34,688 nucleotides of DNA from Candidatus Daviesbacteria bacterium RIFCSPLOWO2_01_FULL_39_12. Its GTDB lineage: Bacteria; Patescibacteriota; Microgenomatia; Daviesbacterales; UBA10151. Both the position numbers and the translations under genes were made by a program. Every line of letters starts with the position of its first letter. Positions within the stretch are counted from its first letter, which is position 1. The DNA lies in NCBI GenBank assembly GCA_001776905.1, contig MFDM01000014.1, positions 8,075-42,762 on the forward strand, given 5' to 3'. The notes beneath the pieces were generated by a model that worked only from the letters and a program-made list of their open reading frames with translations, was not told the origin of the DNA and made no database searches. This document shows, piece after piece, positions 9,009 through 31,461 of this stretch.

Positions 9009-10622
9009 CTACTTAGGTGACACTATTAGAAAAGCCAAATCACCACTTGAAAGATATATCTTTTGTAAAATCTCACTATCTTTAATATCTTTTTCAGGCA
9101 AACTCCAAGGGCTACCTATGAATAAGACGCCCTTTTGATATCTATCTTCTCTCCAATCTATTCTTCTTATAGCAAACTTATCGAATTTGAAGGCTCCATC
9201 CTGATTTTCTTTTTTCTCGGATTGAAATTTGGCCGGATCATATTTAGAATAAAATAGCAGGTACATATAGGGAATACTCACGATATTTTGAGCCTTAATA
9301 CCTCGGTACGGATCAAAGACTATTTCGCGGTAGTTATCTTTATTTTCCAAAGCATACAAAACAGTTTCTTTAGTTCCTTCCATAAATGCCTCGCCTTGTT
9401 GATAAGGAAAATAAACACTAAACACCAAAAAAGCATGAATTAAAGAAGTAATTATTAAAAAGGTAAATAAACATAATATGGTAGTCTTTACAAAAAGATT
9501 AGTTAGATTCCGGATAATTTGTAAAAAGTAAATGGTGCCCAAACTTATCACCATAATTAGAGCTGGTAAAATTAACAAGCTTCTGCCGGCACTTTGTTCA
9601 TTATTGGTCAGCGAGGCAGGAATTAAACCTAAAAGAATCCAGAGTATAATTAAAATTCTAAATTGAAATTTCTTCCGTATTAAATGAATAATACCGAAAA
9701 TTAACAGTGGAAGTTCAAAGAGATGTAATACACCCAGACCCAGTATGTTTGAGTTGGTCATGTTTAATCCGTTAAAGAAAAGAAAATCAACTTGAAAATA
9801 ATTTAGGAATCTTTTAATCCAAAAAAATATTAACAGAAAATATTCTCCGGATTTTTCTATATGATCAAGTATCACATACCTGGTATAATCGATATCTTGC
9901 ACTAGAAATACCATTTGCGCCCTAGTGTTGAGCGGCCCAAATAATGTCAAGAAAATTAACGGTAAAATTAACATAATTATTATTATTAAAAAAGTCTTTA
10001 TAGAGGATGGTTTAATCCCCTTTCGATTAAGTACTAAAGTTGATCCAATAAACAGTGGCACAAAAAGCCTATGTGAATGATAGGAATACATAGAGACAGC
10101 CAGAAATAAAGCAGCCGGAAGATAATCCTTAAATCCTTGGATTAGTCTGTAAAAGAAAATAAAACCTAAAAGAAGAAAAAAAGTCCCTATTAGGTGATCG
10201 GAGGCAAACCGTGAATAATAAATGTGCCAGGGAGAAATTGCCAAAAGTGCTGCTCCAATAAAAGATGCTTTAGAATCATTGGTCAAAGTTTTGATCAGTA
10301 AAAAGATTAACGGTATGGATAATACACCGAATAAAGCAGTAACAAATCTGACACCGAACTCATTTAATCCGAATAAAGCTATTGAGGGAACTAATAAATA
10401 TATTAGCACCGGACTTTTATAATCTCCAATTGATCTGAAGGCAATCGGCATAAATTGTCCGTTTTCATCCTTACCGGTTTTTAAAATAGAATAAGCACTA
10501 TAACCATATGCTACTTCATCAATATTAAGGCTGGGAGGATTATTAGTTAGGTTATTAAACCGCAAGAGGGCACCTAAAATAATAATCGATGTTAACAAAA
10601 TTATATTCCTAAAGTTTATCAT
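9009..10622 (-). CDS. PMT/ArnT-like GT-C glycosyltransferase, last gene of the 20-kb operon
   Basis: This 537-residue polytopic protein has the family's first-loop motif NIDEVAYGY (Asp35-Glu36) and a second loop signature GDYKSP near residue 66. Downstream, a large loop precedes the middle helices, and a soluble tail of about 130 residues follows the last one. This is the standard length and layout for the PMT/ArnT-like relatives in this window. The role inferred from the family is transfer from a polyprenyl-phosphate sugar to an outside acceptor (glycolipid or protein). It overlaps the upstream membrane-protein gene by 4 bp (ATGA at 10619-10622) and ends 11 bp from the convergent YfhO gene. 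No hairpin with a T-run is visible in that gap. Acceptor and sugar are unknown. Confidence 0.88.
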   Translation of the reverse strand: MINFRNIILLTSIIILGALLRFNNLTNNPPSLNIDEVAYGYSAYSILKTGKDENGQFMPIAFRSIGDYKSPVLIYLLVPSIALFGLNEFGVRFVTALFGVLSIPLIFLLIKTLTNDSKASFIGAALLAISPWHIYYSRFASDHLIGTFFLLLGFIFFYRLIQGFKDYLPAALFLAVSMYSYHSHRLFVPLFIGSTLVLNRKGIKPSSIKTFLIIIIMLILPLIFLTLFGPLNTRAQMVFLVQDIDYTRYVILDHIEKSGEYFLLIFFWIKRFLNYFQVDFLFFNGLNMTNSNILGLGVLHLFELPLLIFGIIHLIRKKFQFRILIILWILLGLIPASLTNNEQSAGRSLLILPALIMVISLGTIYFLQIIRNLTNLFVKTTILCLFTFLIITSLIHAFLVFSVYFPYQQGEAFMEGTKETVLYALENKDNYREIVFDPYRGIKAQNIVSIPYMYLLFYSKYDPAKFQSEKKENQDGAFKFDKFAIRRIDWREDRYQKGVLFIGSPWSLPEKDIKDSEILQKIYLSSGDLAFLIVSPK

Positions 10623-11788
10623 CTAATTTCAAAATTAATACCAAAAGTTCTCTCAAAACGGGGATACTCCCTAAGATAGATATCAGAAAAGGTTACAAAA
10701 AATTGGAAAATGACTAAGACTACAGCTAAAAGAAAAATTATCCTCTGGGATAATTTTTTATTTTGATAAAGTCTGATTAATCCATAGCTTATTACATAAA
10801 ATATAACAAAAGAGAAAATTACCAATCTATTTAAATCTACGAATTGCTTCGACAATAAGGAAGGGATAATTAAAATCAGTGAGACTCCAAAAAATTTGAT
10901 TGCTGGAGAATATTTGAATAACGAATATACTCCATAAAGAAATGGCAATAGAAATCCCAGAAAAATCGGTGGACTAAAAGAAAAATTAGCCAATTTTTCT
11001 TGAGGAGTAAAGTAGGTTGAGGGAGTTAGATTTTTAATAATTTTTAAGGATGTATACTTTACAAAATATATATACCTGTTTTCGGCTATCTTTGAGAAAA
11101 ATTTAAAACCTACCGCTTGGGCCTGTCCTTGAAAATTATTTATATCACTTAGATGACCACTTCCATTATAGATATTGACTTCATTTCTATAAATATTTGC
11201 CCATCCCACAGGATTTTTAAAAATGGCTATAAAGAGAGGTATGGAAAATAAAATAATCCAAAAAGATAAATTTTTTATATCATTTTTATTAAACAGTTTT
11301 AAAATTAAAACACCCATTATTATTAAGGGAGTCATTATAAACATAACAAACGAGCTATAGAGGAGTAAAACTCCTCCCAAGACGAAAACTATAGAGCCAA
11401 TCTTCCGATAGTCGGATTTAACAAGAATCAGTCCGAAAATCATTGTTAAAATTAGGCTGGTAAGATATATGTAAAAAGAATTAAGTGATGTTAGATATGT
11501 GCTCCAGGGGTTAAAAATATACAAGATCGGTAAGATTAACCCTTGTCTTTTATTCCAAATAAACTGGCTTAAAATTGACAAGATAACAACATTAATATTA
11601 GAGAATATAAAAGCTAACCAAAGTGGAATGACAACTGGTTTAGCTAACAGATCAGCATAAAATAAATTTTCTCCCATCAAATGAATTGGATAAAGAGTTC
11701 TAATCAAAAATGCGATAAAAAGCGAATGGATGGATATTAAGCATAAATTGAAAAAGAAGAGAAATTTATCAACTTTTACAATCTCCAT
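10619..11788 (-). CDS. Polytopic membrane protein, possible divergent GT-C protein
   Basis: I do not recognise this 389-residue protein with certainty. It has about nine hydrophobic segments and one long polar loop near 205-265 (rich in Asn and Tyr, with ENRYIYFVKY and TPSTYFTPQE), followed by a helix with a Pro/Leu-rich pattern. The position of that loop resembles the large central loop of the PMT-like neighbours. However, there is no D-E motif in the first loop and no soluble C-terminal tail. It could be a divergent or non-catalytic GT-C protein or a partner subunit. A GAGGA lies a few bases before the ATG. It follows the upstream gene by 7 nt and overlaps the next by 4, so it is clearly co-expressed with two PMT-like genes. 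Confidence 0.7.
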   Translation of the reverse strand: MEIVKVDKFLFFFNLCLISIHSLFIAFLIRTLYPIHLMGENLFYADLLAKPVVIPLWLAFIFSNINVVILSILSQFIWNKRQGLILPILYIFNPWSTYLTSLNSFYIYLTSLILTMIFGLILVKSDYRKIGSIVFVLGGVLLLYSSFVMFIMTPLIIMGVLILKLFNKNDIKNLSFWIILFSIPLFIAIFKNPVGWANIYRNEVNIYNGSGHLSDINNFQGQAQAVGFKFFSKIAENRYIYFVKYTSLKIIKNLTPSTYFTPQEKLANFSFSPPIFLGFLLPFLYGVYSLFKYSPAIKFFGVSLILIIPSLLSKQFVDLNRLVIFSFVIFYVISYGLIRLYQNKKLSQRIIFLLAVVLVIFQFFVTFSDIYLREYPRFERTFGINFEIR

Positions 11789-11795
11789 TAAGTCC

Positions 11796-13412
11796 TCATT
11801 TTTGTAAATAGTGCATCAGGATGGCGTCTTTTTTGTCTGGGCCTTGTAAAATTTCATAATTTTCCAAGAATTTTGCATCAGTTGGCAACCCTACATATAA
11901 GACACTGCCATTTAGATTACTCAAAAAAGTCTTTATTAAAGTATCCGGGATATAACCTATATAGACATTATTAAATTTTTTAAAGTCATAATTATTCAAT
12001 AGAGTTCTATATTTATTTTGCGAAATCACCACTTCCGGGTCCTCTTTTGTATAAAGGGGATAAGCAAATTCTACAGCATCTATTCTATCTGCAATAATTA
12101 CGAAGTCATACCTATCTTTATTGATGACGGCAACCTCAGATGCCAATTTTCCCGGATAAGCCCAAAAGCTGGAGAACTGATTGGGAGCAAGAAAATAAAG
12201 TTTTTGAGCAAAAAATATAAATTGGATTGCAAATCCTATTGCTACTATCAAAAGTATTTTTTTCTTTCTGTTATCCAAAATTATACTCAGACCCAAAGTT
12301 GAAAAAAGCAGTAGCGGTGGTAACATGAGAGAGCTTCTTAAAGCGTGCGGCGAATCTACCAGGGCCGTAGCAAATGGCGCTAAAACAATCCATCCCAAAA
12401 GAAAAATTACTGTTCTCCTGTTACTTTTCCAAAAACTTACAAAACCAATAAATATTAAAATTATTTCCACAGCATAAATTTGTCCCATGGTGGCCATATT
12501 GTGCCGGGGATTTCTATCTCCGTGTAAAACCAAAAAATCTACAGAAAAATTTTGTAAATAGTCTTCTATAAATACCTTCATATATTCAACTCCCTTATTA
12601 TGAAAATATTTTGCAAATTCTTGCGGCAGGAGCGTTAACGTTCTTTCGTAATTTATTCTTTGTTCAATAGACTCTTTTAAATTTTGTTGAGAAAAAATGT
12701 TAATCTCAGCAAATCTTATCTCAGAACTGGCTATAAAAGTTTGACTCAGTGTGGTTATTCCTAAAAACAAAAATATTACTACTGCAGCAAAGAAATATTT
12801 TTTATCCTTATTGAGAAAACCTCTTCCCCACTGATACCAAACTAATAATGGGATAAATACAGGTAGGGTCAGCTTATAGGTGGGGTAGGTATGTAAGGTT
12901 AAACCGAAGCTTAAAGCAGAAAGTGGATAAAGAAAGCTTTTTTCTTTTGCCTTAATGAAACAGTAAATTCCTAAAAGAGCTAGTAATAGAGCCAGATGCG
13001 CCTCAAATCCTGCTCTAGACAGAGAAATATCCCAGGGAGAAACAGTAGTTACAGCTGCTGCTATCACTCCCACTCTTTTTGAGAAGATTTCCTTGCCTAA
13101 CAAATACATCAAAAATACTATACCTATTCCTGATAAAACAGATAATATCCTAACCCCTAAAGCAGTTGGGCCAAATAGGGCCACAAAAGGAATTGACAAA
13201 TAGACATAAGCAGCAGGTCTTCCTGCACCCATCTCAAAAGTTAAAGGAAATGAGTTTCCCAGTTGATCTTTACCTGTATGCAGCAAGGAGTTTGCATCCA
13301 GTATAATTGTTAACTCATCACCGTACAAAGAAGGGGGATTATTATTTATATTGACAACTCTTAAGATAAAGCCTATTAAGATGATAATTAACAATATTGC
13401 TTTAGTTTTCAT
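11796..13412 (-). CDS. PMT/ArnT-like GT-C glycosyltransferase
   Basis: This 538-residue polytopic protein has the first-loop motif YGDELT (Asp32-Glu33). The second loop carries GAGRPAAY in place of the more common DYKSP, keeping the aromatic/proline pattern. The central outside loop contains FSVDFLVLHGD followed by NPRH, a stretch I associate with the ArnT-like relatives common in CPR bacteria. A soluble tail of about 140 residues ends the protein. It should act as an outside, polyprenyl-phosphate-sugar-dependent transferase; the acceptor is unknown. Its ATG overlaps the TGA of the upstream gene (ATGA at 13409-13412). The gene fits the operon in length and composition. Confidence 0.88.
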   Translation of the reverse strand: MKTKAILLIIILIGFILRVVNINNNPPSLYGDELTIILDANSLLHTGKDQLGNSFPLTFEMGAGRPAAYVYLSIPFVALFGPTALGVRILSVLSGIGIVFLMYLLGKEIFSKRVGVIAAAVTTVSPWDISLSRAGFEAHLALLLALLGIYCFIKAKEKSFLYPLSALSFGLTLHTYPTYKLTLPVFIPLLVWYQWGRGFLNKDKKYFFAAVVIFLFLGITTLSQTFIASSEIRFAEINIFSQQNLKESIEQRINYERTLTLLPQEFAKYFHNKGVEYMKVFIEDYLQNFSVDFLVLHGDRNPRHNMATMGQIYAVEIILIFIGFVSFWKSNRRTVIFLLGWIVLAPFATALVDSPHALRSSLMLPPLLLFSTLGLSIILDNRKKKILLIVAIGFAIQFIFFAQKLYFLAPNQFSSFWAYPGKLASEVAVINKDRYDFVIIADRIDAVEFAYPLYTKEDPEVVISQNKYRTLLNNYDFKKFNNVYIGYIPDTLIKTFLSNLNGSVLYVGLPTDAKFLENYEILQGPDKKDAILMHYLQK

Positions 13413-15442
13413 CTTACTCTATAAATCCTTGAATCTTCATTTTCAAAGACTAAATCTGCGTTAATATTTTCAACCTCAGCAGCAAATCTTTCTTCCCATA
13501 CCAGATATATAAAATCTACGTCGTACTTTTTTAAAAAATCATTCATTTTATTTGAGTCTGTACTGTCGAAAGCTTCTTTCCTCTCATTTACCAATTCATC
13601 TACATCATACCCCATTATATTAATTTGTTCTTCATCAGCAATTAGAGTTTTTCTTGATGTGAATACTGACACATATCCGGTATCATACCAGGCGTAAATT
13701 GGTATCGGCGGGTTTTTATACATATCTTTTTCATATTTATTAAAGGGCGCAGTTAAAACTACTGCATCTCTCTCAGAATTTTGCTTTAAATAATTTAGAG
13801 CTTCCAACTCCCCATAAGAAATTTTAGATAATGCAGGATTAGAATAAAATTGCCATAAAAGTCCAACCTGTGTGGGGATTGCCAGAAATATAATTATTAT
13901 AACTGTTATAACCTTTAAGACCGTAGGTCGCAAGGACGTAGTCCTTATAGCTTTTATTTTGATCTTAATCAATAAATCTGTAACTGCTATTGCTGCCAAA
14001 AAACCAAACAGCAAAAGGAAGTACTGGTTAAATTGAATTGAATTCCAGGCTACTCCTTTTTGTAAAAACAAAACTGGAATCGTAAAAGAAGTTAGGGTAA
14101 TAATTAAAAAAAACAGATTGAAAGAATTTCTAAAAATATTTTCCCTAAGCTGTTTAAAGATCGTCCAAAATCCCAAAAACCTCATTCCTAAATTCCCAAA
14201 AAGAAATATTAAAAAGGCAGTTGTTTCCAACTGAACTACTCTCAAATTAGCATTCCATGTCCCTCTGCTTAAATAATGTTGGCGTCTTAGCTCTAAATCT
14301 AACCAGTTTAATCTATCTGTTGCCACTACCATTGTTCTGATATACCACCAAGGTTGCCAGATCAAAAAATCCTGGGAGCCGGCGCTGTTTGGAAAATAAA
14401 TGCCAAATGACAGTAAGAATGACGCTAAAAAAAGAAGCAGAGTTTTGAAAATTCTCTTAGCAAAGATTTCATAGATACCCACAATTAGTAATCCAAATAA
14501 TATTAATATCCCTCCGTATACCTTAAACCCAATTATAGAACCTCCTAATATGACGCTTAGAAAAAAATACTTATAATCATATGATTTAAAATATCTTAAT
14601 AGACAAAATAAGAAAGCAGTTAAAATAATAAAAGCTGAAGCGTGTGGTGGATTTCCTAAAACTGAATGTGTTTGTGATACCCAAAAAATTGATTCTCCGC
14701 CTAAACTGCCGTGTGTTGGAATATATAATAAATACCCAAAGCTTCCGGCAAAATAGGTAAAAAACATGGCCCAAATTCCTGCAATTTCACTCTTTTTCCA
14801 TTCCCTAACAAAAATAAATGATGTAAGACCTAAAAGAATAGAGAAAAGTGTTGGCATAAACCTAAAATAAATATCCAAATTAGAAAAGTAAAAAAGTCTT
14901 GACATTTCAGACATTAAAAGATCAACAAAGAAGTGATAATTTTGTAACTTCGCTCCGGCCAATTCCGGATTTTGAAATGGAAACTCATTTTTTTTCATCT
15001 GTTCCATTAAGCTCAAATGCCATACGCCGTCGTGACCATGTGAACTCCAAAAATAGACCCCATCTTTGTAAAGTAATCCTGACGGTGCATTTACAGCCAC
15101 TTGCGCAAAAATACCTATTAGAAAAACTAATAAAAAGAGATTTTTGCTATGTATATTTAGTTTGAATTGAAGGAATTCATTTTTAAATTTAATTAATACC
15201 AAAAGTCCAAAAATCGGAAAAGTCCACATTAAAAATCTTAAATTTATAAAGGCAAAAATATATGCAATCAGCGTAAAGATTACTAGTCCTAAAACTGTTG
15301 ATAATGTATACTTTTCTATTGAGTCTTTAACAATAAACTGAAACTTTTTTAGAATAAAAAAGCCCACTGTTGTAAAACAAATAAAATTAATAGCTAAAAA
15401 TAAAATTCCTAATAAAATTTGCAATATTGTACTTTGTATCAT
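13409..15442 (-). CDS. Polytopic membrane protein with HDGVWH motif, GT-C-like
   Basis: This 677-residue protein is a paralogue of the second half of the gene just upstream (roughly residues 500-1151 there). Shared landmarks are GHDGVWHLSL (135-144), QNYHFFVDLL (167-176) and a soluble C-terminal domain. The Asp/His-rich first outside loop followed by many helices is GT-C-like and suggests a catalytic Asp at the HDG, but I cannot name the family with confidence. About 12 membrane helices are visible. It overlaps its neighbours by ATGA at both ends. A pair of tiny palindromes (13919-13946) is embedded in the coding sequence between two helices, adding a short Thr/Ser/Arg-rich stretch. Likely role: a sugar transfer step outside the membrane together with its larger paralogue. 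Confidence 0.75.
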   Translation of the reverse strand: MIQSTILQILLGILFLAINFICFTTVGFFILKKFQFIVKDSIEKYTLSTVLGLVIFTLIAYIFAFINLRFLMWTFPIFGLLVLIKFKNEFLQFKLNIHSKNLFLLVFLIGIFAQVAVNAPSGLLYKDGVYFWSSHGHDGVWHLSLMEQMKKNEFPFQNPELAGAKLQNYHFFVDLLMSEMSRLFYFSNLDIYFRFMPTLFSILLGLTSFIFVREWKKSEIAGIWAMFFTYFAGSFGYLLYIPTHGSLGGESIFWVSQTHSVLGNPPHASAFIILTAFLFCLLRYFKSYDYKYFFLSVILGGSIIGFKVYGGILILFGLLIVGIYEIFAKRIFKTLLLFLASFLLSFGIYFPNSAGSQDFLIWQPWWYIRTMVVATDRLNWLDLELRRQHYLSRGTWNANLRVVQLETTAFLIFLFGNLGMRFLGFWTIFKQLRENIFRNSFNLFFLIITLTSFTIPVLFLQKGVAWNSIQFNQYFLLLFGFLAAIAVTDLLIKIKIKAIRTTSLRPTVLKVITVIIIIFLAIPTQVGLLWQFYSNPALSKISYGELEALNYLKQNSERDAVVLTAPFNKYEKDMYKNPPIPIYAWYDTGYVSVFTSRKTLIADEEQINIMGYDVDELVNERKEAFDSTDSNKMNDFLKKYDVDFIYLVWEERFAAEVENINADLVFENEDSRIYRVR
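13919..13946. repeat. Two adjacent short palindromes sharing a GTA centre, inside a coding region
   Basis: The plus strand shows GACC-GTA-GGTC (13919-13929), two bases, then AAGGAC-GTA-GTCCTT (13932-13946). Both stems are perfect and both have the same GTA centre. They fall in frame in the 677-residue membrane protein gene, encoding a polar linker (around RTTSLRPTV) between two hydrophobic segments. This looks like a small inserted palindromic element tolerated in a loop. Copies elsewhere in the genome cannot be seen from here. Confidence 0.65.
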
Positions 15443-18400
15443 CTATTTTCTACCCCATAAATTGAAATTTGTTTATTTTCAAAAATTAACTTAATTTTTT
15501 TTGTCTGCTCGTTAAATTTAACTTCAAAAATATTGGGGATATAGATATATTTAATTCTGTTTTTATCCAGAAATTCATCTTCACCAAGACCTGATTTTGC
15601 AAAAAAATCCTTTGATGCAACCAATCTCTTCTTATAGTCGGTTAATAAAATCTGGTTTTGTGAATCATCTTCCACATAAACCGACTTTTTGGAAAAAGCC
15701 CCCACATACGCCGTAGAATCATAAACAAAAAGAGGCCAGGGTTCCGCAAATCTTAGTTTCAATTTTTCATCGTATGGATATGTCAAAACTACTCCCTCGC
15801 TTTGTGATTCTAAAAACTGCAGAGCTTCTAATTCTTGAGTGGGAATGAAAGCATGTGGTTTGAAGTATAGATACCCGTTAGCAGTTGCCCAGGAATTTAT
15901 CGGAGTGATAATTAATATTACTGCAGTTACGGGTATAGCAATCAGTTTACTCCATTTGCAGAAGATATATAATAAAACAATTCCGCCACTTATTGCCGAG
16001 ATATATAGAAAATAATAAATGAACTGGATAGTATTCCAGGGGTTTCCTGCTTGTATAAATAAGATTGGAATAGTTAAGGAAGCAGCAGAAAATATCAACA
16101 TGAAAAGATACTCCCTTGTTTGAAAAATTGTTTTAAATTTCAACAGAGAAAACGCTCCGATGACTCTTGTCCCTAAATTTCCAACTATAAATACAAAAAG
16201 ACTCAGTACTTCAGCAGTAATGAATTTAAACCAGTTGCCCTGGCTAAATCCTGTTTCTCTGGCAAGAGCAAACCTCATCCACCCCACTCTATCAGGCGAA
16301 TCTATCATTGAATGTATGAACCAAAAAGGAGAAAAAATAATCAGCTTCTCACTTAAACTGAAATTTGAGAAAAACAAACTGGCTGATAATAATAAACTAA
16401 ATATAAAAATTATTAAATAATTTAAAGATCTTCTTAATATACCAACTATCAATAAACTAATTAATACTAGAAATCCGGCATAGGCTTTAAAAGAAATTAA
16501 GCTTCCGCAAAGAAGTATCAGAATCAATATATTTTTTTTATCAAATTTATTTAACTTAATAAGTAATTGTATTATGGCGATTACCAATACTAGCGAGATG
16601 GCAAATGGCGGATTTAAGTTGAATGAAATTGACTGATTTGCCCAAAAGTTAGACTCCCCCCCAAATCCTCTACCCTTTATTTGCTCAACAATCCATCCAA
16701 AACTGCCGGCAAAATAGATTAGGTACAAGGCAAAAATTATGGATAGTCTAGTTTGTAATTCTCCTACTTTTTTATTAAAAAGCTCCCATATTAAGTAGTA
16801 GCTACCTATGCCCAAAAGTAGCGAGAAAAGAATTGGATAAAATCTGAAAACTAAATCAGAAACCCCAATATCCAAAATATAACTTGTGGCAGCCACCAAA
16901 AGATCGTAAAAGTAATGATAATTCTTTAAAACTTCCCCTCCCAGAATTGGATTTTGAGGAGGAACACTTTTAATTAGCTGATTTATTAAACTAACATGCC
17001 AGACTCCATCGTGAGTATTAGGTCCCCAAAATCCCAAACCATAAGGGAAAAGTAAGCCGCTACTAAAGGTGGGTATGACTTGAAATATTGTACCTGCTAA
17101 AACTATGCCAATAATCAGTAAGTTTAACTTCTGTTTTAGGGGCAAAATAAGATTATCATGAAGCTGGTTCGTTATTTTTTTAACAGCTATAATTTTGGTA
17201 AGCGCTATAACCGCTATAGCAATATAGACATAAATTAGCTGTTTTAATCCTACAAGGCTGAATAGATAGAAAAGCAGTGTTAGTGAAACTAACCCTAGAC
17301 TCATTGCCAGAAAAATCTTTTGTAAGAGAGAACCCTGCTTATAAATTTTGTTTATTAATATGTATGGAACAGCGACTAAAACTAATAAAAAGCTGATAAA
17401 TTTAATCAATTTAAAAAGAGCTGATTGCAAAGACCATTTAAAAGATCCTTTCTCAATGGTAATTTGCATTTTCTCTTTACTAAGATTTTGCTCTGTTATA
17501 CCAAGTATCGTTGAATCAATCGATAAAGTTTTACCATCAACCCCTATATCTTTATCCAGTAACTCCAGACTTCTCTGATTGCCTGCCTCGTTAATATAAC
17601 TTAAAATAAAATTGTCTCCTTTTTTTGTAACTTTAAAATTTGTAATTTTCCCCTCATCAACAATCCATTTATGTCCAAAGCTGACTTCATCCAAAACTCT
17701 GGTGGCAGAAGTTGCAAAGTTAACCTGGTCACATCTTTTTAGAAGGCAGATTTCTTCTCCTCCCGTATACTGGCGGATATCACGAAATACCGAGCCATCT
17801 TTATTGTAAAACCATCCTGCCCGATAATTTAAATTCATAAACCAAACCACCCGCTCCTCTGTTCCTAGTGGATCTGCTGCATCAATAATATGAGGCGGAG
17901 AAAATTGGGGAAAATGCTCCATATACCAGTCGGCAAAATCCTTCATTGTGACAATTGAAAACTGCCCTTCATTCCTCTTTCTTATCAAAACATCAATTTG
18001 TCTTTTATACTCAGGTCCATATTTTGTCCAGGAATACGAATTCTCCAAGCCCACCACGACGTGAGCGAATTGATTAAATTTTTGTTTGGTATAAATATCT
18101 AAAATTGCGGAGAAATAATCTGTAGTTAAGTTATGATAATCTAAGTAATCGTTTGCCTGAATTGAGTATGTACTTTCCGAAACTCCGTTTCCATATCCAT
18201 TAACAGGATCCCTGGCAGCCCACTGCATCATCACCAGGGGCAGTTTATCTTCTATGTTTTTGGCAGGCTCTATGGCATTTCTTTTGGAAGGATAATAGGG
18301 GGTAGACCAAAACTGTCCCCAAATCTGATAGTTATCTGTTGAGTACTGATCTGCCACAATAAGTGCTGCGGTTATCCCATATTTTCTTTGCATGTATTCT

Positions 18401-21363: not shown

Positions 21364-21366
21364 AAG

Positions 21367-22629
21367 TTAAGAGGAAACCGTCGATAATTTTTTAGGAAAA
21401 TATCTGTAGGTGAAATAGAAAGCCGCGCCAACAAATAATGTATGGAGGATGCTTCTGAAAAAATTAATGTCTAAACTAATTCCCATCAATTGCCATAAAT
21501 CCTTTCCCTGATAAACCTGGGGATTTATCGGGGCGAACAGTCCGATGGTCAGGGATTGGTCAAAGAAAAATAGTAACATAAACCAGCTGAAGAAGGCTGT
21601 TGTAGTCGCCAAAATATTTCTGAATCTACCTACGATTACCTCTATTATCAAAAATGGGGTTAACCATAGAAACCATTGCGGATGAGCATGAGTAAAAATA
21701 AAAAATAACAAAATTACCACAAAATAATATTGCCATAAATTCTTTTGATCTGAAATTTTAAGGCAAATTAGGTAGAAAAAAGTAAGAGCCGCCAAAAATA
21801 AGATGATACTCTCTCCGCCGGAAACCGGAATTTGAGGATAAAAACTCTTACTAAGCTGATTTGCCAAAAGAGCGTTACTCCTAAAACCAAAGGATGGAAG
21901 AAAGGGGAATATTGTCAAAAGATATGGGGCTAACCCTAAAGCTATTATTTTTGACCTAACATAGAATGATTTTGTTAACGACGCCAAAGGTATCAAGAAA
22001 AGAAAAGGGTAAATCTTAAAGGCCGCCCCAATGCCCAATAAAATGGCTGCTAAATAAATATTTCTTAAGCCGGACTCTTTTCCCCCTTTTACCATATACA
22101 AGGAAGCTATAGTGAAAAAGGTGGGAATAATATCATACTGACCCATCATGAATGTGGCATATAAGGTTAGCGGATTAAACATCCAGATGGTAAATGCCAA
22201 AAGTTTCGTTTTAAAATCATCAAAAAATTTAAAAAGCAAAACAGCACATCCCAGATCAAAAAATAGCAGGGGGAGTTTTAAGGCTAAAAGATGAAGAAAT
22301 AAAAACATATTGCCTAAGATGTTTCTTGTGTTGAATAAAAAATCACTATGTATTTGGGTTGGGGTGATGGCGGTAAATATTAAAGAGGATCCTCCCAAAA
22401 GAATATAGGTAAGCGGTGGGTAATTTAGGCTAAATGGTGGGAAATTTTTAATGATCTGATCATCAAGGGGCAAGGTATATAAATAATCATAAAAATTTAA
22501 CAGATGTCCCCCTTTTAAAATCTGGCCCGCCAGATCAAACACCTGTATATCGGGATGAAAGGTGAAACTCGATAAAATCAACCTTAATATTAATCCTGCT
22601 GCTAAAATTATCCATATATATTTACTCAT
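21367..22629 (-). CDS. GT87-like/ALG6-like GT-C mannosyltransferase-type protein
   Basis: This 420-residue polytopic protein has FHPDIQVF (Asp27) in the first outside loop, NYPPLTY (69-75) before the second helix, and a MGQYDIIPTFF signature with KIYPF downstream. This combination is typical of the GT87/DUF2029 and PIG-M/ALG6-like GT-C enzymes, which use polyprenyl-phosphate mannose or glucose outside the membrane. About ten helices are visible. It lacks the long soluble C-terminal domain of its PTPS-related neighbours. AGAGGTGG lies about 10 nt before the ATG, a usable Shine-Dalgarno, and its start overlaps the upstream stop (ATGA at 22626-22629). The GT-C class is likely; the exact CAZy family is my best guess. 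Confidence 0.8.
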   Translation of the reverse strand: MSKYIWIILAAGLILRLILSSFTFHPDIQVFDLAGQILKGGHLLNFYDYLYTLPLDDQIIKNFPPFSLNYPPLTYILLGGSSLIFTAITPTQIHSDFLFNTRNILGNMFLFLHLLALKLPLLFFDLGCAVLLFKFFDDFKTKLLAFTIWMFNPLTLYATFMMGQYDIIPTFFTIASLYMVKGGKESGLRNIYLAAILLGIGAAFKIYPFLFLIPLASLTKSFYVRSKIIALGLAPYLLTIFPFLPSFGFRSNALLANQLSKSFYPQIPVSGGESIILFLAALTFFYLICLKISDQKNLWQYYFVVILLFFIFTHAHPQWFLWLTPFLIIEVIVGRFRNILATTTAFFSWFMLLFFFDQSLTIGLFAPINPQVYQGKDLWQLMGISLDINFFRSILHTLFVGAAFYFTYRYFPKKLSTVSS

Positions 22630-24329
22630 ATTTGATGACCACCTCTAATTTTGCCAGATTTAACCGGATTAAACAAATCAATTCTAAGTACCAGCAGTAG
22701 TGCCAAAATAAAACCTATCAGTGAAATTGAGTCCAAAAAAATCTTTGGTGGTGTCTCCTTAAAGGTGATCTCTATTTGATGAAATCCGGCCGGCACTTGA
22801 AGGCTGATTTGGCCAAAAGGCTTACCCGGTTCAATATCTGTAGTTGTTCCATCCACTTTGACACTCCATCCCGGAAAAAAGTATTTATTATAATCCAGCC
22901 TGCCCCCATTTTCCGATATAACCTCCAAACGAGTATCCAAATCATTTATTTTAGAAGCATTTTTAATTTGCCCATCTTGAAATAAAACCAATGGAAAGTT
23001 TCTATCAGGCCTGATTCTTGTATAGATGGGGAGCCTTAAATACTCCTCTTTCGTACTCAGATATTCACTACTGGCAACAGGTGTTGGGATATAACGGTTA
23101 AGATAATAATCATCCTTTCTGCCTAAAAAATCTTGTGGTTTAAAATAATATGCAGATGTAGTAATTGTTAATGCAATCATCAGTATTGCCACCACATGAG
23201 TTAATTTGAAATATTTCAAGCTAATTACCAAAATTGGTATACAGACAGTTGTCATAACTAAAAATCTCCAGGGAAATTGAAAATATGGCAGAAGCGGAAT
23301 ATTTTGCCAAATCAATCCAGAACGATAGTTCATTAAAAATACAGCGGCCATTGAACTTATCAGACTCCAAATTACTATCACTCTTTCATTAATTGAATAT
23401 TTTTTGAAGTGAAAAAATAATGAGAATACTCCTAAAATTAATACCAAAATATTAGAAATCCCCAGAAAAAATGACATGCCGTCATTGGGACCCGGCACAG
23501 ATGCTCCATACCCCCAATAGGGGGTGATTAACTGTCTAATGGTTGGAAAATGATCCGCAAAATTAAAGACAGTATCATACTTAATAAGCTTACTCTCCAC
23601 TAAAGCCGGCAGCCAAAAATATGCGCTGATTAAAAGCCCCAAAAAAAATGTTAAAAATAAATTAACAGCTTTTCTAGTCTTCTGGCTGCCTATAAAAAAC
23701 ACCATCATGGCGGCAAAAAGAAAAATAAAAGGAAAAAACATGTATGCGGTAATATTGTGCGACAACACTAGGGAAGCAAGCGATAGTGCACCAATCCCAA
23801 TCCATCTAGTACTCACACCTTGGAAAATTTTTATAATAGAAAGCAAGATTAGGGGTAAAAATACAAAACTTATTATCTCCCCTATCGCTCCCCTGATATA
23901 AATATCAACCGCTCTATACGGTGTATAAATATAAAGTATTGCACCTGATAAAGATAGCCAGACATTACCAAATTGTCTTAAAAGAAAATACATACTAAAT
24001 CCTGATAAAGGAATGCTAAGGAAAAATAACATTTTAATGCTATCCACTAAACTTAAACCTAACAGATGGAAAATTTCCGCAATATAAAAAGGCAAAGGAA
24101 AGACAAAATTAAATAAGGGATAACCAAATCCAAAACTTAAATCAGGTACGAACCGGGGCGGGATTTTCCCAGACATAAGCGTTTGGTGCATCTGATATAA
24201 CCAACCGATGTGTAAATCATCAGATGCGCCATAAAAACCTGGCACTAAAAGCACCCAAAAAGCAGGGATGGATAAAACTACTACTATAATCCACCAATAT
24301 TTATCTAAAAATTTTTCTATCCTTTGCAT
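22626..24329 (-). CDS. PTPS-related polytopic membrane protein, GT-C-like (copy 3 of 3 full-length)
   Basis: This 567-residue protein is of the type annotated as '6-pyruvoyl-tetrahydropterin synthase-related membrane protein' (a misleading name with no pterin chemistry implied). It has GASDDLHIGW with Asp37-Asp38 in the first outside loop, then KIPPRF and GFGYPLFNF, then PYRAVDIYIRGA and SHNITA. The middle loop carries PYWGYGASVPGPNDG, then FQFPWRFL. A C-terminal outside beta region with PGWSVKVDG and HQIEITF precedes the last helix. It is the most divergent of the three full-length copies (PPRF instead of PCRW). It overlaps the upstream copy by 29 bp. Probable role: an outside glycosyltransfer step. 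Confidence 0.82.
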   Translation of the reverse strand: MQRIEKFLDKYWWIIVVVLSIPAFWVLLVPGFYGASDDLHIGWLYQMHQTLMSGKIPPRFVPDLSFGFGYPLFNFVFPLPFYIAEIFHLLGLSLVDSIKMLFFLSIPLSGFSMYFLLRQFGNVWLSLSGAILYIYTPYRAVDIYIRGAIGEIISFVFLPLILLSIIKIFQGVSTRWIGIGALSLASLVLSHNITAYMFFPFIFLFAAMMVFFIGSQKTRKAVNLFLTFFLGLLISAYFWLPALVESKLIKYDTVFNFADHFPTIRQLITPYWGYGASVPGPNDGMSFFLGISNILVLILGVFSLFFHFKKYSINERVIVIWSLISSMAAVFLMNYRSGLIWQNIPLLPYFQFPWRFLVMTTVCIPILVISLKYFKLTHVVAILMIALTITTSAYYFKPQDFLGRKDDYYLNRYIPTPVASSEYLSTKEEYLRLPIYTRIRPDRNFPLVLFQDGQIKNASKINDLDTRLEVISENGGRLDYNKYFFPGWSVKVDGTTTDIEPGKPFGQISLQVPAGFHQIEITFKETPPKIFLDSISLIGFILALLLVLRIDLFNPVKSGKIRGGHQI

Positions 24330-25959
24330 AAAAAATTATTACCAATAAAAGAAGGAAGGAAATTATTGTTACCCAGTTTGACAAAGTCCTTATCAGGGTA
24401 TTTTCAAATTGACCCTCTACTAAATACTCCCCCCTATCTAAGCTGAAAGCTATTCTTCCGATGGTACCTTGAGTATGCGGGATCACCTTATCATTAGCCA
24501 GAACCTGCCAGTCTGGAAAATCGAAGATGGGAACTTCTATCTTAGCCTCCTCTACTACATCTATATTAAACTCAAATCTGTTTGATCTAATTTTAAAATC
24601 TTTAATGTTTGCTTGACCAAAAGTTATAATGGGCATGGATGGGGCAGCTTCCTGTGGTTTGAGGGCAGTTTGCGGTAAATAATCTAAAATTGCCGCCTTT
24701 TGCTGTTGCTCCCAAAATTGACCTGAAAGTTTTTGTTGATCTGACAAATTTGGATAGAATTGATCAGGTTTAAAAAAATTGGAATTAAGAACCACTGCTA
24801 AAGTAACAATTAAAATCATTGAATATTTCTTGTATTTAACAGAGGTGGAACTGACCAGAAAACCTCCCAGTAAGCTGGCACTGAAAACGGCCACTGATAA
24901 AAATCTCCAGGGAAATTGGACAAACCTTAACAATGTAAATTTTTCCCAAATAAAGGCTGACCTTATATGTGTCATGAATATGGCAACGATAAATACCAAC
25001 AGTATCAATAAAGCATATTTTGAGCTTCTTTCCTTAAAATAAATTGCCATGGAAATAATCGAAGCAATTACAATCCACCAGTGTGGCCAACCAATCTGAA
25101 ATGAGATGGTATCATCACTTCCCGGGGATGAGGCTCCATAGCCCCAAGATCTATCAAAAAATAATTGATTTAAGCTGACAAAATGGGCTCTGAAATCCAA
25201 GTCTAACCTGGTTAAATTTTCAATTTGAACTAAGTCTTTCTCAAAAAAACTGGGGATAGTAAAAAACGCCGATAACCCAAAGCCTAAGGCTAAACTTAAT
25301 ATTAATGGGATAAATAATTTAGATTTCTCAATATATATCCAAAAAGCACAAAATAATATGAGCGTCGGGATAAAAAATATCGTCATGATATTATGGGAAG
25401 TTAACAGTATGGCTAAAGAAATGGTCAAAATTATAAAATATCTAACTTTAAATTCTCTGATTAATTTATATGCAAAAAGAAAACATAAAGGAACGATGGA
25501 GATGGCAAAACTTTCTGCCAAAGCTCCTCTGACATATAAATCCAAAGCTTTGTATGGAACAAATTGGTATAAAATAGCGGCCACAAATCCTGCTTCTTTC
25601 CCAAAAATCTCTTTACCTAAATAATACATTGAGATCCCACCTGAAAGTGCAGCCATAAAAAATAAAATTTTGGCTGACAATATAAATCCAAAAATAAAAC
25701 TCAACAAGCCTCCCACATAATATATAAAGGGATTATAATAATTAAAAAGCGGGTAACCATTGCCATATCCCATATCACTTACCCATCTGCAGGGGATTTG
25801 CAGATCCTCAAAGCATTTTCTCATCTCAAAAATCCTCATCACCTGTAAATCATCATGATGTGAAAAATAACCCGGCAAAAATAAGGGCCAAACTACCAGT
25901 AATGAAAAGGCCAAAAGTAAAATTAAATAAATATTTTTTTTAATGTTTTCCAAAGTCAT
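24301..25959 (-). CDS. PTPS-related polytopic membrane protein, GT-C-like (copy 2 of 3 full-length)
   Basis: This 552-residue paralogue of its two neighbours has HHDDLQVMR (Asp36-Asp37) in the first loop, then QIPCRW and GNGYPLFNY. PYKALDLYVRGALAE and TSHNIMT follow, then RSWGYGASSPGSDD in the middle loop and VQFPWRFL. The C-terminal outside region has FPDWQVLANDK and FENTLIR before the last helix. The string of conserved outside-loop residues (DD, RW, RGA, WGYG) suggests one active site facing outward. It overlaps the upstream gene by 20 bp and the downstream gene by 29 bp. Its closest relative by eye is the upstream copy, pointing to local tandem duplication. Confidence 0.85.
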   Translation of the reverse strand: MTLENIKKNIYLILLLAFSLLVVWPLFLPGYFSHHDDLQVMRIFEMRKCFEDLQIPCRWVSDMGYGNGYPLFNYYNPFIYYVGGLLSFIFGFILSAKILFFMAALSGGISMYYLGKEIFGKEAGFVAAILYQFVPYKALDLYVRGALAESFAISIVPLCFLFAYKLIREFKVRYFIILTISLAILLTSHNIMTIFFIPTLILFCAFWIYIEKSKLFIPLILSLALGFGLSAFFTIPSFFEKDLVQIENLTRLDLDFRAHFVSLNQLFFDRSWGYGASSPGSDDTISFQIGWPHWWIVIASIISMAIYFKERSSKYALLILLVFIVAIFMTHIRSAFIWEKFTLLRFVQFPWRFLSVAVFSASLLGGFLVSSTSVKYKKYSMILIVTLAVVLNSNFFKPDQFYPNLSDQQKLSGQFWEQQQKAAILDYLPQTALKPQEAAPSMPIITFGQANIKDFKIRSNRFEFNIDVVEEAKIEVPIFDFPDWQVLANDKVIPHTQGTIGRIAFSLDRGEYLVEGQFENTLIRTLSNWVTIISFLLLLVIIFYAKDRKIFR

Positions 25960-27625
25960 AAATTTTAAAGATTAAAAATATTAAGATCAAAAAACTTCCT
26001 AAAGTAATTGTATCCCCGATTGTCCTGATAGGAGTATTTTTTAATTGAGCTTTTATAAAATGCTTCCCGGTAGTTACAGGAACAGCAATCAGCCCAAAAC
26101 AATATTCCTCTCCTCTGCAATCATTGTTAACATGGGCTACTTTTTGCCCATCAATACTAACTTCCATTCCCGGAAAATCAAAAAGAGGCAACCTCAATAA
26201 GGCACCTTCCTGCACATTTATCTCTCCATATTGATAGTCGGTTCCCTTTTGGTAACTTAAAAATTCCACTTGTCCTGCCAATACCTCAGGCAACTTTGGA
26301 GCCTCATGATTAGGAGGTAGTTTGGCATAGATTGGCAAATAATCAAAAATAGAAATTGTTAACTGCTTTTGCCATAAACTGCCGGAAAATTTATCCTGAT
26401 CAGTAATTGGAAGCCAGTTTTTCGGTTGAAAAAATTGCCCATGTAGTATAAAAATTCCCAGTAAAGTTATCACGACAAAAATCTTGGCATATTTTTCATT
26501 GAATTTTGAAATATAAAATACTGCTATGGAACCTAAAAAAGACAGCAGAAAAATGCTGACAGTTAAAAATCTCCAAGGAAACTGCAACCAAACCAAAACC
26601 GGCAATGTACTCCAAATAAATGTTGACCTTTGATGAATTAAAAATAGCACCAACAATTCAGTCAAAGATAATATGATTGTCATAGTTGCCAGCCTTTTAT
26701 ATTTTTTAAATAAAATTAAAGAAAGTGTAAGGGCAAGTAAACCCAAAATCCAATGAATCTGTCCGGTTGATAAAGTCAAATCATTATCCTGCCCTAGTCC
26801 GGATGATCCATAACCCCATCTGTTTGATATGAATAGCCTTTCCAAATTTACAAAGTGTTGCCTGAAATCAAAATAACCTCCCAGTAAAGTTTCCAGATGG
26901 GCATATTGTCTTTCGAACACCACAGGTAGTGTATAAAAGGCAGCCAGCCCTAACCCCAATAATCCTGAAAAAATTATTTTTAATAAGACCCTCCATTGCC
27001 TTTCTACAGTAAGTAAACTGACACACCAGATTAGGGCAACTGGTATAAAAATCATGGTCATTAAGTTATGGGTAATTAAAAGCCCACCAATAGATAAAGA
27101 GAGCAAAACTACATATTTTAAACTTTTTTTAGTGATCAACTGATAAATAGCTAAAAAAATTAATGGATAAAAGACTAAACTCCACAGCTCGCTCAACGCA
27201 CCTCTCACATAGACCTCCAATGCTTTGTAGGGCACATATGTATAAAGCATGGCGCCTAAAAAAGCAGGCAGAGCGGCTTTTAGAAAAGTTTTTAGAAAAA
27301 TAAACATCAAAAGAGTGGATAAGACATATCCCAAAATAAACAAAAGTTTTACTGAATCGATAATTTGCACTCCCAAAAGGTGGAAAAAGGCACCAAGATA
27401 ATAAATAAAGGGGGGATAATATAAAAACTGCGGGTAACCATAGCCGTATCCTGCGTCAGGCACCCATCTGCAGGGAATTTGCAAATCCTGCAAGCATTTA
27501 GACATTTCCAAAATTCTGAAAGCTTGTAGATCATCCTGCATAAAGAAAAAGCCGGGGCGTAAAAGTTGGTAAAATGTGGGCAATGTTAAAATCAATAGTA
27601 CTAAAAACAAAGCTGCTTTTCTCAT
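25940..27625 (-). CDS. PTPS-related polytopic membrane protein, GT-C-like (copy 1 of 3 full-length)
   Basis: This 561-residue protein starts with a hydrophobic helix and FMQDDLQAFR (Asp31-Asp32), then QIPCRW, GYGYPQFLYY, PYKALEVYVRGALSE and THNLMT. The middle loop has NRWGYGSSGLGQDND, then LQFPWRFL. The C-terminal outside region contains FPGMEVSIDGQ, a Cys pair around NDCRGEEYCFG not seen in the other copies, and LKNTPIR. The two Cys residues could form a disulfide outside the cell. The ATG overlaps the TGA of the first operon gene (ATGA at 27622-27625). As with the other copies, activity is inferred from the conserved acidic loop and the context only. Confidence 0.85.
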   Translation of the reverse strand: MRKAALFLVLLILTLPTFYQLLRPGFFFMQDDLQAFRILEMSKCLQDLQIPCRWVPDAGYGYGYPQFLYYPPFIYYLGAFFHLLGVQIIDSVKLLFILGYVLSTLLMFIFLKTFLKAALPAFLGAMLYTYVPYKALEVYVRGALSELWSLVFYPLIFLAIYQLITKKSLKYVVLLSLSIGGLLITHNLMTMIFIPVALIWCVSLLTVERQWRVLLKIIFSGLLGLGLAAFYTLPVVFERQYAHLETLLGGYFDFRQHFVNLERLFISNRWGYGSSGLGQDNDLTLSTGQIHWILGLLALTLSLILFKKYKRLATMTIILSLTELLVLFLIHQRSTFIWSTLPVLVWLQFPWRFLTVSIFLLSFLGSIAVFYISKFNEKYAKIFVVITLLGIFILHGQFFQPKNWLPITDQDKFSGSLWQKQLTISIFDYLPIYAKLPPNHEAPKLPEVLAGQVEFLSYQKGTDYQYGEINVQEGALLRLPLFDFPGMEVSIDGQKVAHVNNDCRGEEYCFGLIAVPVTTGKHFIKAQLKNTPIRTIGDTITLGSFLILIFLIFKIYDFGKH

Positions 27626-29148
27626 TTTTGAGAGATGATCCTAAAAAGTTGGATGGCATCCTGTTGACCATCTAAACTTTTAACCTTTGGAAACTCCATG
27701 ATAAGTTCTAAACCGCTCTGATGTTCCATCAGCCTTGATCTGTTAGCCACAAAATAAACCTCATTATCTTTTAAAGCTTCTCTGAGTTGCGCAGAAATAG
27801 TGGCATGGGAGCCAATAATTGGTATGCCAGCTTTATCCAGATAAATTTGCAACCCATCAGGCAATGTTCCAAAATACCCCTCTGTCCCTACAACAACATT
27901 AGTTTGTTTCTTCCTCTCCACCAGATATTCTGCAATCTCTTTAAACCCATATCCTGCTGTCCACTCTTCAAAATATCCGATTCTCTCGGCTCTTGGCAAA
28001 GGCGCTTTTTGGGGATCTGTTAATAGTAGGTAATTAAAGTTAAGAGCCGGGATCAGTAAAATTACCAGTACTACCATTTTTACTATCTTACTTGATACTT
28101 GATACTTGATACTTGATATTTTCTCTATCCCATAACCTGCAATCACCAAAAAAGGCGGGATAGATGCCAGTAAATACCTGGCAGTAAAAGGTCTTAAAAA
28201 AGCCATCTCTAAAAGAAGCGGTATTAACCCCCAAAGCAAGACGACTAATCCTAATCTATTCCTCTCCCCTATCACTCTTATTACCCCAATCCCCCCTATC
28301 AATAAAACAGGCCAACTTAACAGCTTGGGAAACCAATCTGAGATATCCCTCAAATGAGGGATAAATGGATCTAGAGGTCTGCCAATTAGCTCCAGTGGGG
28401 AGAAAACATAATCGGCATTCCTGGCTGAAAGTTGGTGAAAGTTTGGTCCTAATCTTAAAAGATTGTATGCAACCAGGGCAATCCCAATTGCCACAGCCCA
28501 AAATATCATAAGCTTTACCAGCTTATGACCCCTATTTTCTCGCTTCGCGAAACGAGCCCCACCATCTCTAAAAGCCAAGAAAGAAACAGGCACCAGCAAT
28601 AGATTGATCATTCCAGGAGTCTTAGTCAAAATCCCTCCACCTAAAATAAATCCCAAAATCATGGATAAATCTAATCTGACTGTTTGAGAAAGCCAAATGG
28701 CAAAATAAATTGCCCAGACGGTAAAGGCAGCCAGCATTGAGTCAACTAATGCCATTCTGTCAAAAAAGACAATGTAGGGAGTAATTACATAAAGAAACCC
28801 TGCCCAAAGAGCCACTTTTTTACCAAACACTTTCCACCCCAAAACTATTACACCCACCAAGCTCATAAAGCCAGATACCACAGATAAAAACCTGCCTGCA
28901 AACAGAGGATCCTCTATAAATTTTAGAACCGGCATCATGCTCCACATAAATAGAGGGGTTTTTCCATCAAATAAAGGCAAAAATCTTAAGGTTGACTCAG
29001 CTCTCATCACCTGAGCCCACCTGATATAAATGGCCTCATCTGCAAAAATGGGCTGAAGAGTAAGGTTTGGTACTCTTAACAGAAAATATAAAACTATCAG
29101 CAGGAAAAAAGCTAAAATTTCCAATTTGTATTGGGAGATAATCTTCAC
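27622..29148 (-). CDS. PMT/ArnT-like GT-C glycosyltransferase, first gene of the 20-kb operon, GTG start
   Basis: This 508-residue protein has FADEAIYI (Asp37-Glu38) in the first loop and DGKTPLFMW (from residue 61), very close to the ArnT-type E/D-K-P-P/T-L second motif. It then has about ten helices and a soluble tail of about 110 residues. It is the most ArnT-like of the set. GTG at 29148 is the only plausible start: the next Met falls after the catalytic loop, and the -10 box lies 6 nt upstream. Two features interrupt the gene without breaking frame: a palindrome pair (28507-28556) encoding a basic cytoplasmic-loop stretch, and a four-unit 7-bp repeat (28090-28117). The family call is firm; sugar and acceptor are unknown. 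Confidence 0.9.
   Translation of the reverse strand: MKIISQYKLEILAFFLLIVLYFLLRVPNLTLQPIFADEAIYIRWAQVMRAESTLRFLPLFDGKTPLFMWSMMPVLKFIEDPLFAGRFLSVVSGFMSLVGVIVLGWKVFGKKVALWAGFLYVITPYIVFFDRMALVDSMLAAFTVWAIYFAIWLSQTVRLDLSMILGFILGGGILTKTPGMINLLLVPVSFLAFRDGGARFAKRENRGHKLVKLMIFWAVAIGIALVAYNLLRLGPNFHQLSARNADYVFSPLELIGRPLDPFIPHLRDISDWFPKLLSWPVLLIGGIGVIRVIGERNRLGLVVLLWGLIPLLLEMAFLRPFTARYLLASIPPFLVIAGYGIEKISSIKYQVSSKIVKMVVLVILLIPALNFNYLLLTDPQKAPLPRAERIGYFEEWTAGYGFKEIAEYLVERKKQTNVVVGTEGYFGTLPDGLQIYLDKAGIPIIGSHATISAQLREALKDNEVYFVANRSRLMEHQSGLELIMEFPKVKSLDGQQDAIQLFRIISQK
28090..28117. repeat. Four perfect tandem copies of ACTTGAT inside a coding region
   Basis: The plus strand reads ACTTGAT four times without a mismatch, followed by ATT. 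Because 7 is not a multiple of 3, three units (21 nt) make one 7-residue period in the protein, here around IKYQVSS. It lies before a hydrophobic segment of the PMT-like protein, so it is in a loop. A gain or loss of one unit would shift the frame, so the tract could act as a slippage-prone phase switch for the first gene of the operon. Confidence 0.8.
28507..28556. repeat. Two palindromes inserted in a cytoplasmic loop coding region
   Basis: CATAAGCT-TTACC-AGCTTATG (28507-28527) has a perfect 8-bp stem. CTCG and CGAG at 28539-28556 flank TTCGCGAA with one mismatch pair. On the minus strand the block encodes the very basic ARFAKRENRGHK stretch between two hydrophobic segments of the PMT-like protein. 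This looks like a small palindromic insertion that stayed in frame. Confidence 0.6.
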
Positions 29149-29154
29149 TTAATC

Positions 29155-29182
29155 ATTATATACAATTTCAGCCTTGGATCAA
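29155..29182 (-). promoter_or_regulatory. Promoter of the 12-gene GT-C operon, leaderless type
   Basis: The minus strand shows TTGATC (29177-29182), a 16-nt spacer and a perfect TATAAT (29155-29160). Only 6 nt lie between TATAAT and the GTG start at 29148, so the transcript should begin on or within a base of the start codon, leaving no room for a Shine-Dalgarno. It is the only good promoter seen for the 20 kb of genes that follow. The rest of the 84-bp divergent gap (29149-29232) holds a possible TTAAAT (29219-29224), 8 nt before the plus-strand ATG, without a good -35. Confidence 0.75.
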
Positions 29183-30318: not shown

Positions 30319-30467
30319 AAAGGTGTCCCCTTTCTTCTTAAACTATCCTCAGCAGATCTTTTTAAAGATAGGGCAATCTTTTTGGGATCATCCCAGGTAA
30401 ACACCCCTTCTTCCAAATCCAGGGCAAAGGAGTGTTTAGTGACATATCCTAACCATTTTTTTCTCAT
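30276..30467 (-). CDS. DUF3175-like small protein, C-terminally shortened
   Basis: This 63-residue protein begins KKWLGYVTKHSFALDLEEG and continues FTWDDPKKIA, SLKRSAEDS and RRKGTPFQS. That is the conserved core of DUF3175 as I recall it. In that family the sequence normally continues with a Met/Phe/Tyr-rich segment (roughly AMSMLNFYINRAG). Here that part is absent, and the last 14 codons run as the antisense of the C-terminus of the plus-strand 361-residue protein (overlap 30276-30318). The gene follows the 79-residue gene by 1 nt, so the two form a small operon. It may be a functional short variant or a decayed 3' end. No biochemical function is known to me for the family. Confidence 0.65.
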   Translation of the reverse strand: MRKKWLGYVTKHSFALDLEEGVFTWDDPKKIALSLKRSAEDSLRRKGTPFQSVSSVESTWFLI

Positions 30468-30468
30468 A

Positions 30469-30708: not shown

Positions 30709-30716
30709 AGAACCAA

Positions 30717-30725: not shown

Positions 30726-30735
30726 GGATACAAAT

Positions 30736-30768: not shown

Positions 30769-30777
30769 AGTAAGTCA

Positions 30778-31386: not shown

Positions 31387-31461
31387 AAATAATTTGTAAA
31401 GTTTGAATCCTTATCACATAAATTTCTCTTACGATTTGGATTGTAATATTGAGACATAAGT

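Follow-up and report, generated by a model that had tools for sequence, protein, structure and literature searches.

A 20-kb operon of membrane enzymes in a tiny uncultured bacterium, with an apparent role in assembling a sugar coat on the outer side of the membrane

Results

The DNA analysed here, referred to as the window, is a stretch of 34,688 nucleotides (C14:8075-42762, on contig MFDM01000014.1) within the 1.0-Mb assembly (G000) of Candidatus Daviesbacteria bacterium RIFCSPLOWO2_01_FULL_39_12. It forms the middle part of a glycan locus of approximately 64 kb that extends from about C14:2365 to 66943; positions given without the C14 prefix are those of the window. Twelve consecutive open reading frames on the minus strand, from A1 (27622-29148) to A12 (9009-10622), overlap by up to 29 nt or are separated by no more than 7 nt, in agreement with a preliminary description that reported twelve minus-strand genes with gaps of 7 nt or less. 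A7 (18887-20362) matches the Pfam family Polysacc_synt_3 (2.4e-53) and, below the cut-off, the NCBIfam MOP flippase model, and hydropathy analysis gives 7–15 membrane segments in ten of the eleven other proteins and about four in the short A6. The proposed set of eleven membrane proteins and one Wzx/MOP flippase is confirmed by these results.

The same description placed one good promoter at the front of the operon. A promoter-like sequence, TTGATC-16-TATAAT, is indeed present on the minus strand at 29155-29182 (printed 29182-29155), but the stretch holds six such sites where 4.3 ± 1.9 are expected, which is not above chance. Only 6 nt separate the −10 box from the GTG codon that begins A1, so that a leaderless mRNA would be implied, and a real promoter at this position is plausible. 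Rfam and tRNA scans gave no matches.

Pfam places six of the eleven membrane proteins in GT-C families. A1, which begins with GTG and carries a FADEAIY motif, matches PMT_2 (5.4e-10) and is the most conserved enzyme of the operon, with DE37-38 present in all full-length orthologues of the alignment. A10 (11796-13412; GDE motif, DE32-33) and A12 (IDE motif, DE35-36) are also of the PMT_2 type (4.7e-12 and 1.6e-12 respectively). The remaining three belong to the YfhO/PTPS group and, like the three PMT_2 proteins, score over the Pfam cut-offs: A2 (25940-27625; MQDDL motif, D31) with 34.8 bits to YfhO, A3 (24301-25959; HHDDL motif, D36) with 1.2e-12 to PTPS_related, and A4 (22626-24329; SDDL motif, D37) with 29.5 bits to PTPS_related. 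A3 has a C-terminal outside beta-domain, and its predicted structure (pLDDT 83, pTM 0.86) matches the folds of AglB, STT3, ArnT, Pmt4 and AftD. A5 (21367-22629) is PIG-M-like, since a profile of its family finds GPI mannosyltransferase 1 with an E of 7e-11, and H25 and D27 of its HxD motif (HxD25-27) are invariant in the family alignment. A11 (10619-11788), which is without a first-loop acidic motif, is GT-C-like by a profile-profile match to the A1 family (prob 89%, E 2e-6) that begins behind the first loop; in the loci of relatives it often stands directly before A12.

The assignment of all eleven proteins to the GT-C fold or family is supported by Pfam for six, by the PIG-M match for A5, by structural models of A3 and of A8, the latter also covering its paralogue A9, and by homology for A6 and A11. 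Structure prediction had been named as a check on the GT-C claim, and the A8 and A3 models both give this fold. Profiles of the A8, A1 and A3 families found no match among PDB sequences. For A9 and A5, comparing the family profiles with that of A1 yielded nothing in favour of the assignment, and these two proteins were settled instead by the A8 fold model and the PIG-M match. Orthologue alignments contain a conserved acidic motif in nine of the eleven (A1–A5, A8–A10 and A12) and none in A6 or A11. The earlier count of at least eight such motifs is therefore upheld, but their placement in the first outside loop does not extend to A8 and A9, where HDG comes after membrane helix four instead of helix one; it is still outside according to the positive-inside topology.

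A8 (15439-18894) is predicted to consist of a signal peptide, an extracellular NodB-fold domain of about 470 residues, which amounts to nearly half of the protein, and a GT-C part with an HDG motif (HD628-629). Pfam gave no convincing match for A8, its N-terminal domain included. The A8 model has a mean pLDDT of 65, with low confidence in parts that include some of the NodB-fold domain. When it was compared by Foldseek, the membrane half matched AglB, DPY19, PglB, AftA and ArnT, and the N-terminal domain matched several CE4 deacetylase structures with TM values by target of 0.5–0.7, so that the model has a NodB-type barrel there. The barrel is common to the CE4/NodB deacetylases, but their metal-binding histidines are absent from A8: the Asp-His-His triad (TFDDG, HxxxH) is missing and no histidine is conserved at 90% or more in 32 sequences. 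Instead, R37, E98, D161, D187, D229, D249 and E284 are invariant in 32 of 32. The lack of conserved histidines together with the invariant carboxylates rules out a standard CE4 deacetylase; our guess from the sequence is a glycosidase or transglycosidase. Among relatives the NodB-fold domain adjoins or is fused to GT-C proteins in both orders, lying behind the GT-C part, the reverse of A8, in genome G038. Elsewhere it occurs alone with a membrane anchor or fused to other membrane segments, and several families have just the GT-C half of A8. A9 (13409-15442; HDG motif, HD137-138) is a paralogue of this half with 35% identity.

A tree of 72 YfhO/PTPS proteins contains four groups from the operon. 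Those of A2 and A3 both have support of 100/98 and each spans families, six in the case of A2; that of A4 is more weakly supported. A2, A3 and, less firmly, A4 thus appear to be separate ancient orthologous groups, which fits a distinct step for each enzyme. The fourth group, that of A6 (20362-21363), has support of 100/100 within the host's own family. Here A6 is a shortened member that groups with full-length orthologues of 565–591 residues; it retains the outside beta-domain and is without the DD motif and the later membrane helices. Short forms occur in three genomes (333 residues here, 386 in G004 and 442 in G017), all with the outside beta-domain and all without the same central block and DD, while about fifteen relatives have longer proteins, mostly of 565–591 residues. 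The topology test weakly rejects one common origin for these short forms (p-AU 0.03). Because conservation of the C-terminal domain remains high and the shortening is similar in G004 and G017, we prefer to see A6 as a retained short form rather than a decaying pseudogene, with decay possible given the long branches.

To the left of the operon lies a plus-strand gene for a YfhO-family GT-C (6526-8997; YfhO 5.8e-21, over the cut-off), which is often found in the loci of relatives too. It is followed on the minus strand by genes for two cytoplasmic GT2 proteins (5599-6489 and 4788-5594) and a cytoplasmic GT4 (3709-4791; Glycos_transf_1, 2e-23); gene-order comparison places the first GT2 downstream of the flippase and A8 as a conserved neighbour, and the second GT2 and the GT4 belong to the conserved core. 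Two more minus-strand GT-C genes complete the left side, one with an NSDEA motif (2227-3708) and one of the PMT_2 type in the left operon (638-2230; 6.7e-10). The listed start of the former, 3432, is too late, and its open frame has no ATG, GTG or TTG between 3708 and the motif.

The absence of a donor synthase from the window, correctly noted before, is an edge effect. Three predicted donor synthases lie within 6 kb of the right edge, namely an ArnC/DPMS/PgfS-like GT2 (C14:43276), a GT2-PMT fusion (C14:44028) and a GT2-GtrA protein (C14:47406), and a donor-synthase-like GT2 (C14:6453-7193) lies just left of the window, all by homology. The earlier view that the donors are made elsewhere does not hold well, as they would probably be made by these genes adjoining the operon. 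Beyond the right-hand synthases follow a GDP-mannose 4,6-dehydratase-like (Gmd-like) gene and the dTDP-rhamnose genes RmlABCD, the latter assigned by sequence and position.

No initiating phosphoglycosyltransferase (PGT) was found in the locus, PF02397 being matched only on contig C23 and PF00953 on C11 and C23. The rest of the genome encodes a PGT, two WecA/MraY-type enzymes (PF00953), an LCP protein and several Wzy_C proteins. When the genome was searched for STT3/PglB/AglB, the sole result was that A10 cross-matched weakly, with 19.9 bits and under the cut-off, and STT3 was rejected as the ligase. The locus is likewise without a recognised Wzy. An ordinary Wzx/Wzy cluster, in which at least one of the poorly conserved members A5, A11 and C14:46195 would be an unrecognised Wzy polymerase or ligase, could accommodate the flippase, the strong divergence of Wzy proteins and the missing acidic motif of A11. 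It is nevertheless very improbable, given that Pfam matches to Wzy_C (PF04932) fall only on contigs other than C14, that A5 matches PIG-M and that A11 can be aligned to the GT-C family of A1.

Comparison with relatives had been proposed as a check on the operon, and gene order proved strongly conserved; so far as they could be run, neither this check nor structure prediction refuted the earlier proposal. About 14 families of the class share the order donor synthase, A1, YfhO/PTPS paralogues, flippase, A8, GT2, GT2, GT4, in loci that were picked by a match to A8, so that the presence of A8 is ascertained and that of its neighbours is not. Gaps in this core are mostly below 50 nt. In most loci A7 immediately precedes A8, or one half of it (N- or C-terminal), ahead of GT2-GT2-GT4, with A1 and the YfhO/PTPS genes upstream, and in many an ArnC/DPMS/PgfS-like synthase of the C14:43276 type directly precedes A1. 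The YfhO/PTPS genes, A5, A6 and A9–A12 vary in presence, which indicates that the full assembly line is not universal. Matches were found in a Ca. Daviesbacteria MAG (JAUYKM010000009.1), Ca. Woesebacteria and Beckwithbacteria, whose class we take to be Microgenomatia. In a sample of 153 genomes of the phylum, 12 had a match to A1 at E ≤ 1e-20, every one from the host's class and none from another.

Within the genome, 13 of the 27 PMT_2 matches are on the 72.6-kb contig C14, although this contig makes up just 7% of the assembly. With a binomial p of about 1e-8, a figure that measures clustering only, the grouping is not due to chance. PMT_2 genes occur in 136 of 137 genomes of the class, often in numbers from 10 to at least 24 per genome. 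Richness in GT-C proteins is therefore ordinary for the class, and the special feature of this locus is its conserved order. Literature searches of open-access papers found no paper on it.

Discussion

The best reading of the locus would be a class-specific, lipid-linked glycan pathway with two sides, resembling both ALG assembly and Gram-positive transmembrane glycosylation. The operon would encode its outer-leaflet half, with a core common to the class, and we give this proposal an even chance. An initiating transferase encoded outside the locus would begin the sugar chain on a lipid carrier inside the cell, the conserved GT2, GT2 and GT4 would extend it on the cytoplasmic side and the flippase A7 would turn the lipid-linked chain outward. 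There, A1–A5, A8–A10, A12 and the YfhO protein might each add single sugars from polyprenyl-phosphate donors, supplied by the DPM/ArnC-type synthases adjoining the operon (C14:43276-48593 and 6453-7193). The NodB-fold domain of A8 could cut, trim or read the growing glycan, A6 and A11 could be non-catalytic partners, and an LCP- or WaaL/Wzy-like ligase from outside the locus may join the finished glycan to the wall or a surface protein. Gene content, the GT-C fold, motif conservation, conserved order and the fusions were obtained directly; all of the reactions, the direction in which A7 flips its substrate, the acceptor and a location at the surface are inferred, and the product itself would be a surface glycan. 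Weighing against the pathway, the genome has no convincing STT3-type ligase and two of the eleven GT-C proteins are without a catalytic motif.

This proposal keeps only part of the stepwise outside assembly line suggested earlier. The separate A2, A3 and possibly A4 groups fit distinct steps, but the conserved unit contains cytoplasmic glycosyltransferases (3709-6489), which makes the assembly two-sided rather than outside-only; furthermore, A6 and A11 have no catalytic motif and nearly half of A8 is a NodB-fold protein.

Multi-component transmembrane glycosylation systems (CsbB-GtcA-YfhO, GtrABC; PMC8035078, PMC11127046) have in common with the locus a polyprenyl-phosphate sugar synthase, a GtrA- or MATE/Wzx-type flippase and GT-C proteins including YfhO. 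Each type of component is present here: GT-Cs with an outer acidic motif, a GT-A synthase (by homology, outside the window), and the flippase A7 plus the GtrA domain of C14:47406. The membership that we claim, from sequence comparison, is one of component types and not of acceptor or product. The operon might then decorate the side chains of a polymer made elsewhere, such as a teichoic-acid-like or secondary wall polymer, adding branches rather than a linear chain. Synthase, flippase and GT-C lying together in the locus would suit this, as would the YfhO gene, YfhO being a founding member of such systems (PMC8035078). Yet those systems use one or two GT-Cs per sugar, whereas about nine motif-bearing GT-Cs stand here in one conserved operon, together with a flippase, cytoplasmic glycosyltransferases and a NodB-fold/GT-C fusion, and the core order is kept across families along with the cytoplasmic enzymes. 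Decoration, which differs from the two-sided pathway mainly in the acceptor, is in our view rather unlikely.

Alternatively, each GT-C could place sugars straight onto proteins that are secreted or form an S-layer, in the manner of S. mutans PgfS/PgfM1/PgfM2 or of PMT, with no lipid-linked chain extended outside. This possibility draws on the relationship of the PMT_2 family to protein O-mannosyltransferases and on the PgfS-like character of the adjoining GT2 and the PgfM-like character of the YfhO gene, below the cut-off. PMT_2 also includes ArnT-like enzymes that act on lipids and glycans, however, and the conserved core holds a MOP flippase and cytoplasmic glycosyltransferases that pure PMT-type transfer would not need, which makes direct protein glycosylation decidedly improbable. 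The S. mutans pgf operon (PgfS-PgfM1-PgfE-PgfM2; PMC5856776) also combines a GT2 with YfhO-like membrane proteins, but it has two membrane transferases only and its acceptor is an adhesin protein.

For the two-sided pathway, the eukaryotic ALG pathway (PMC4973528) offers the same design of cytoplasmic glycosyltransferases, a proposed flippase, several outer-side GT-Cs, lipid-linked donors and DPM-type synthases. The likeness is of design only, as no STT3 ligase was found and the GT-Cs are PMT_2 and YfhO types and not ALG orthologues. Mycobacterial arabinan assembly (AftA-D, EmbA-C) likewise builds stepwise outside with several GT-Cs, and AftA (for the A8 model) and AftD (for the A3 model) are among the best fold matches, although the families differ.

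Two parts of the system are new. One is the predicted extracellular NodB-fold domain of A8, which lacks the CE4 histidines, matches no Pfam model and is fused to a GT-C; the other is the shortened, apparently non-catalytic A6 seen in three genomes. We suggest tentatively, as a possibility somewhat short of even, that the class keeps by vertical descent a two-sided, ALG-like pathway of its own for a lipid-linked glycan, with about ten GT-Cs acting mostly outside, an extracellular glycosidase-like NodB domain fused to a GT-C, which would let a single protein both build and process the glycan, and short non-catalytic GT-C partners that arose more than once. The lumenal ALG transferases appear to be unique to eukaryotes (PMC4973528), and the pathway, if true, would be an independent bacterial design with ALG-like logic, by resemblance and not by descent. 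Microgenomatia cells are uncultured and their surface is little known; the class-wide core of this locus names candidate enzymes for their envelope glycan, together with the donor genes that flank them.

Variation in gene content and arrangement

The interval between A1, the PMT_2-type GT-C gene at the front of the twelve-gene operon, and the donor synthase gene, which encodes a putative polyprenyl-phosphate-sugar GT2 to the right of the window, is an insertion spot within the glycan locus, since the two genes are directly adjacent in many relatives, some genes of the block found here are present between them in G030 and G009, and G020 has different inserts at this position. In the window the block spans 29233-34686 and encodes a type IIG-like restriction enzyme-methyltransferase, a Bro-N/PDC-S13 defence candidate, a DEDDh/PolB-type exonuclease and an unassigned protein of 361 residues.

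Further right, the gene at C14:44028-46172 of the same genome, G000 (L010:4028-6172), fuses a GT2 donor-synthase domain to a PMT_2 GT-C; in several relatives these are two separate genes. A6, a member of a fourth YfhO/PTPS group, occurs in a shortened form lacking the DD motif in three genomes (window 20362-21363; L045; L051/L052), with closely similar deletion boundaries and the outer beta-domain retained in all three. A similar locus, containing a MOP flippase, GT-Cs, genes resembling the GT-C half of A8 and YfhO, two GT2s and a GT4, was observed in a genome titled candidate division TM6 (L037; CP011212.1), where it might reflect exchange or a mislabelled genome.

The GT-C frame at 2227-3708 contains no ATG, GTG or TTG between the preceding stop and the conserved DEA motif; it seems likely that translation would begin at ATT or a similar codon. 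Directly left of the window edge, 13 N (C14:8062-8074) interrupt a single GT-C gene, so that the break in the partial gene at 3-650 appears to come from a gap in the assembly.

Possible replacement of the flippase

Flippases occupying the A7 slot in relatives fall into two ranges of identity to the MOP/Wzx flippase A7, about 35–39% or 50–71%, and this identity does not follow that of A8 across relatives. This pattern suggests that the flippase has been replaced in place.
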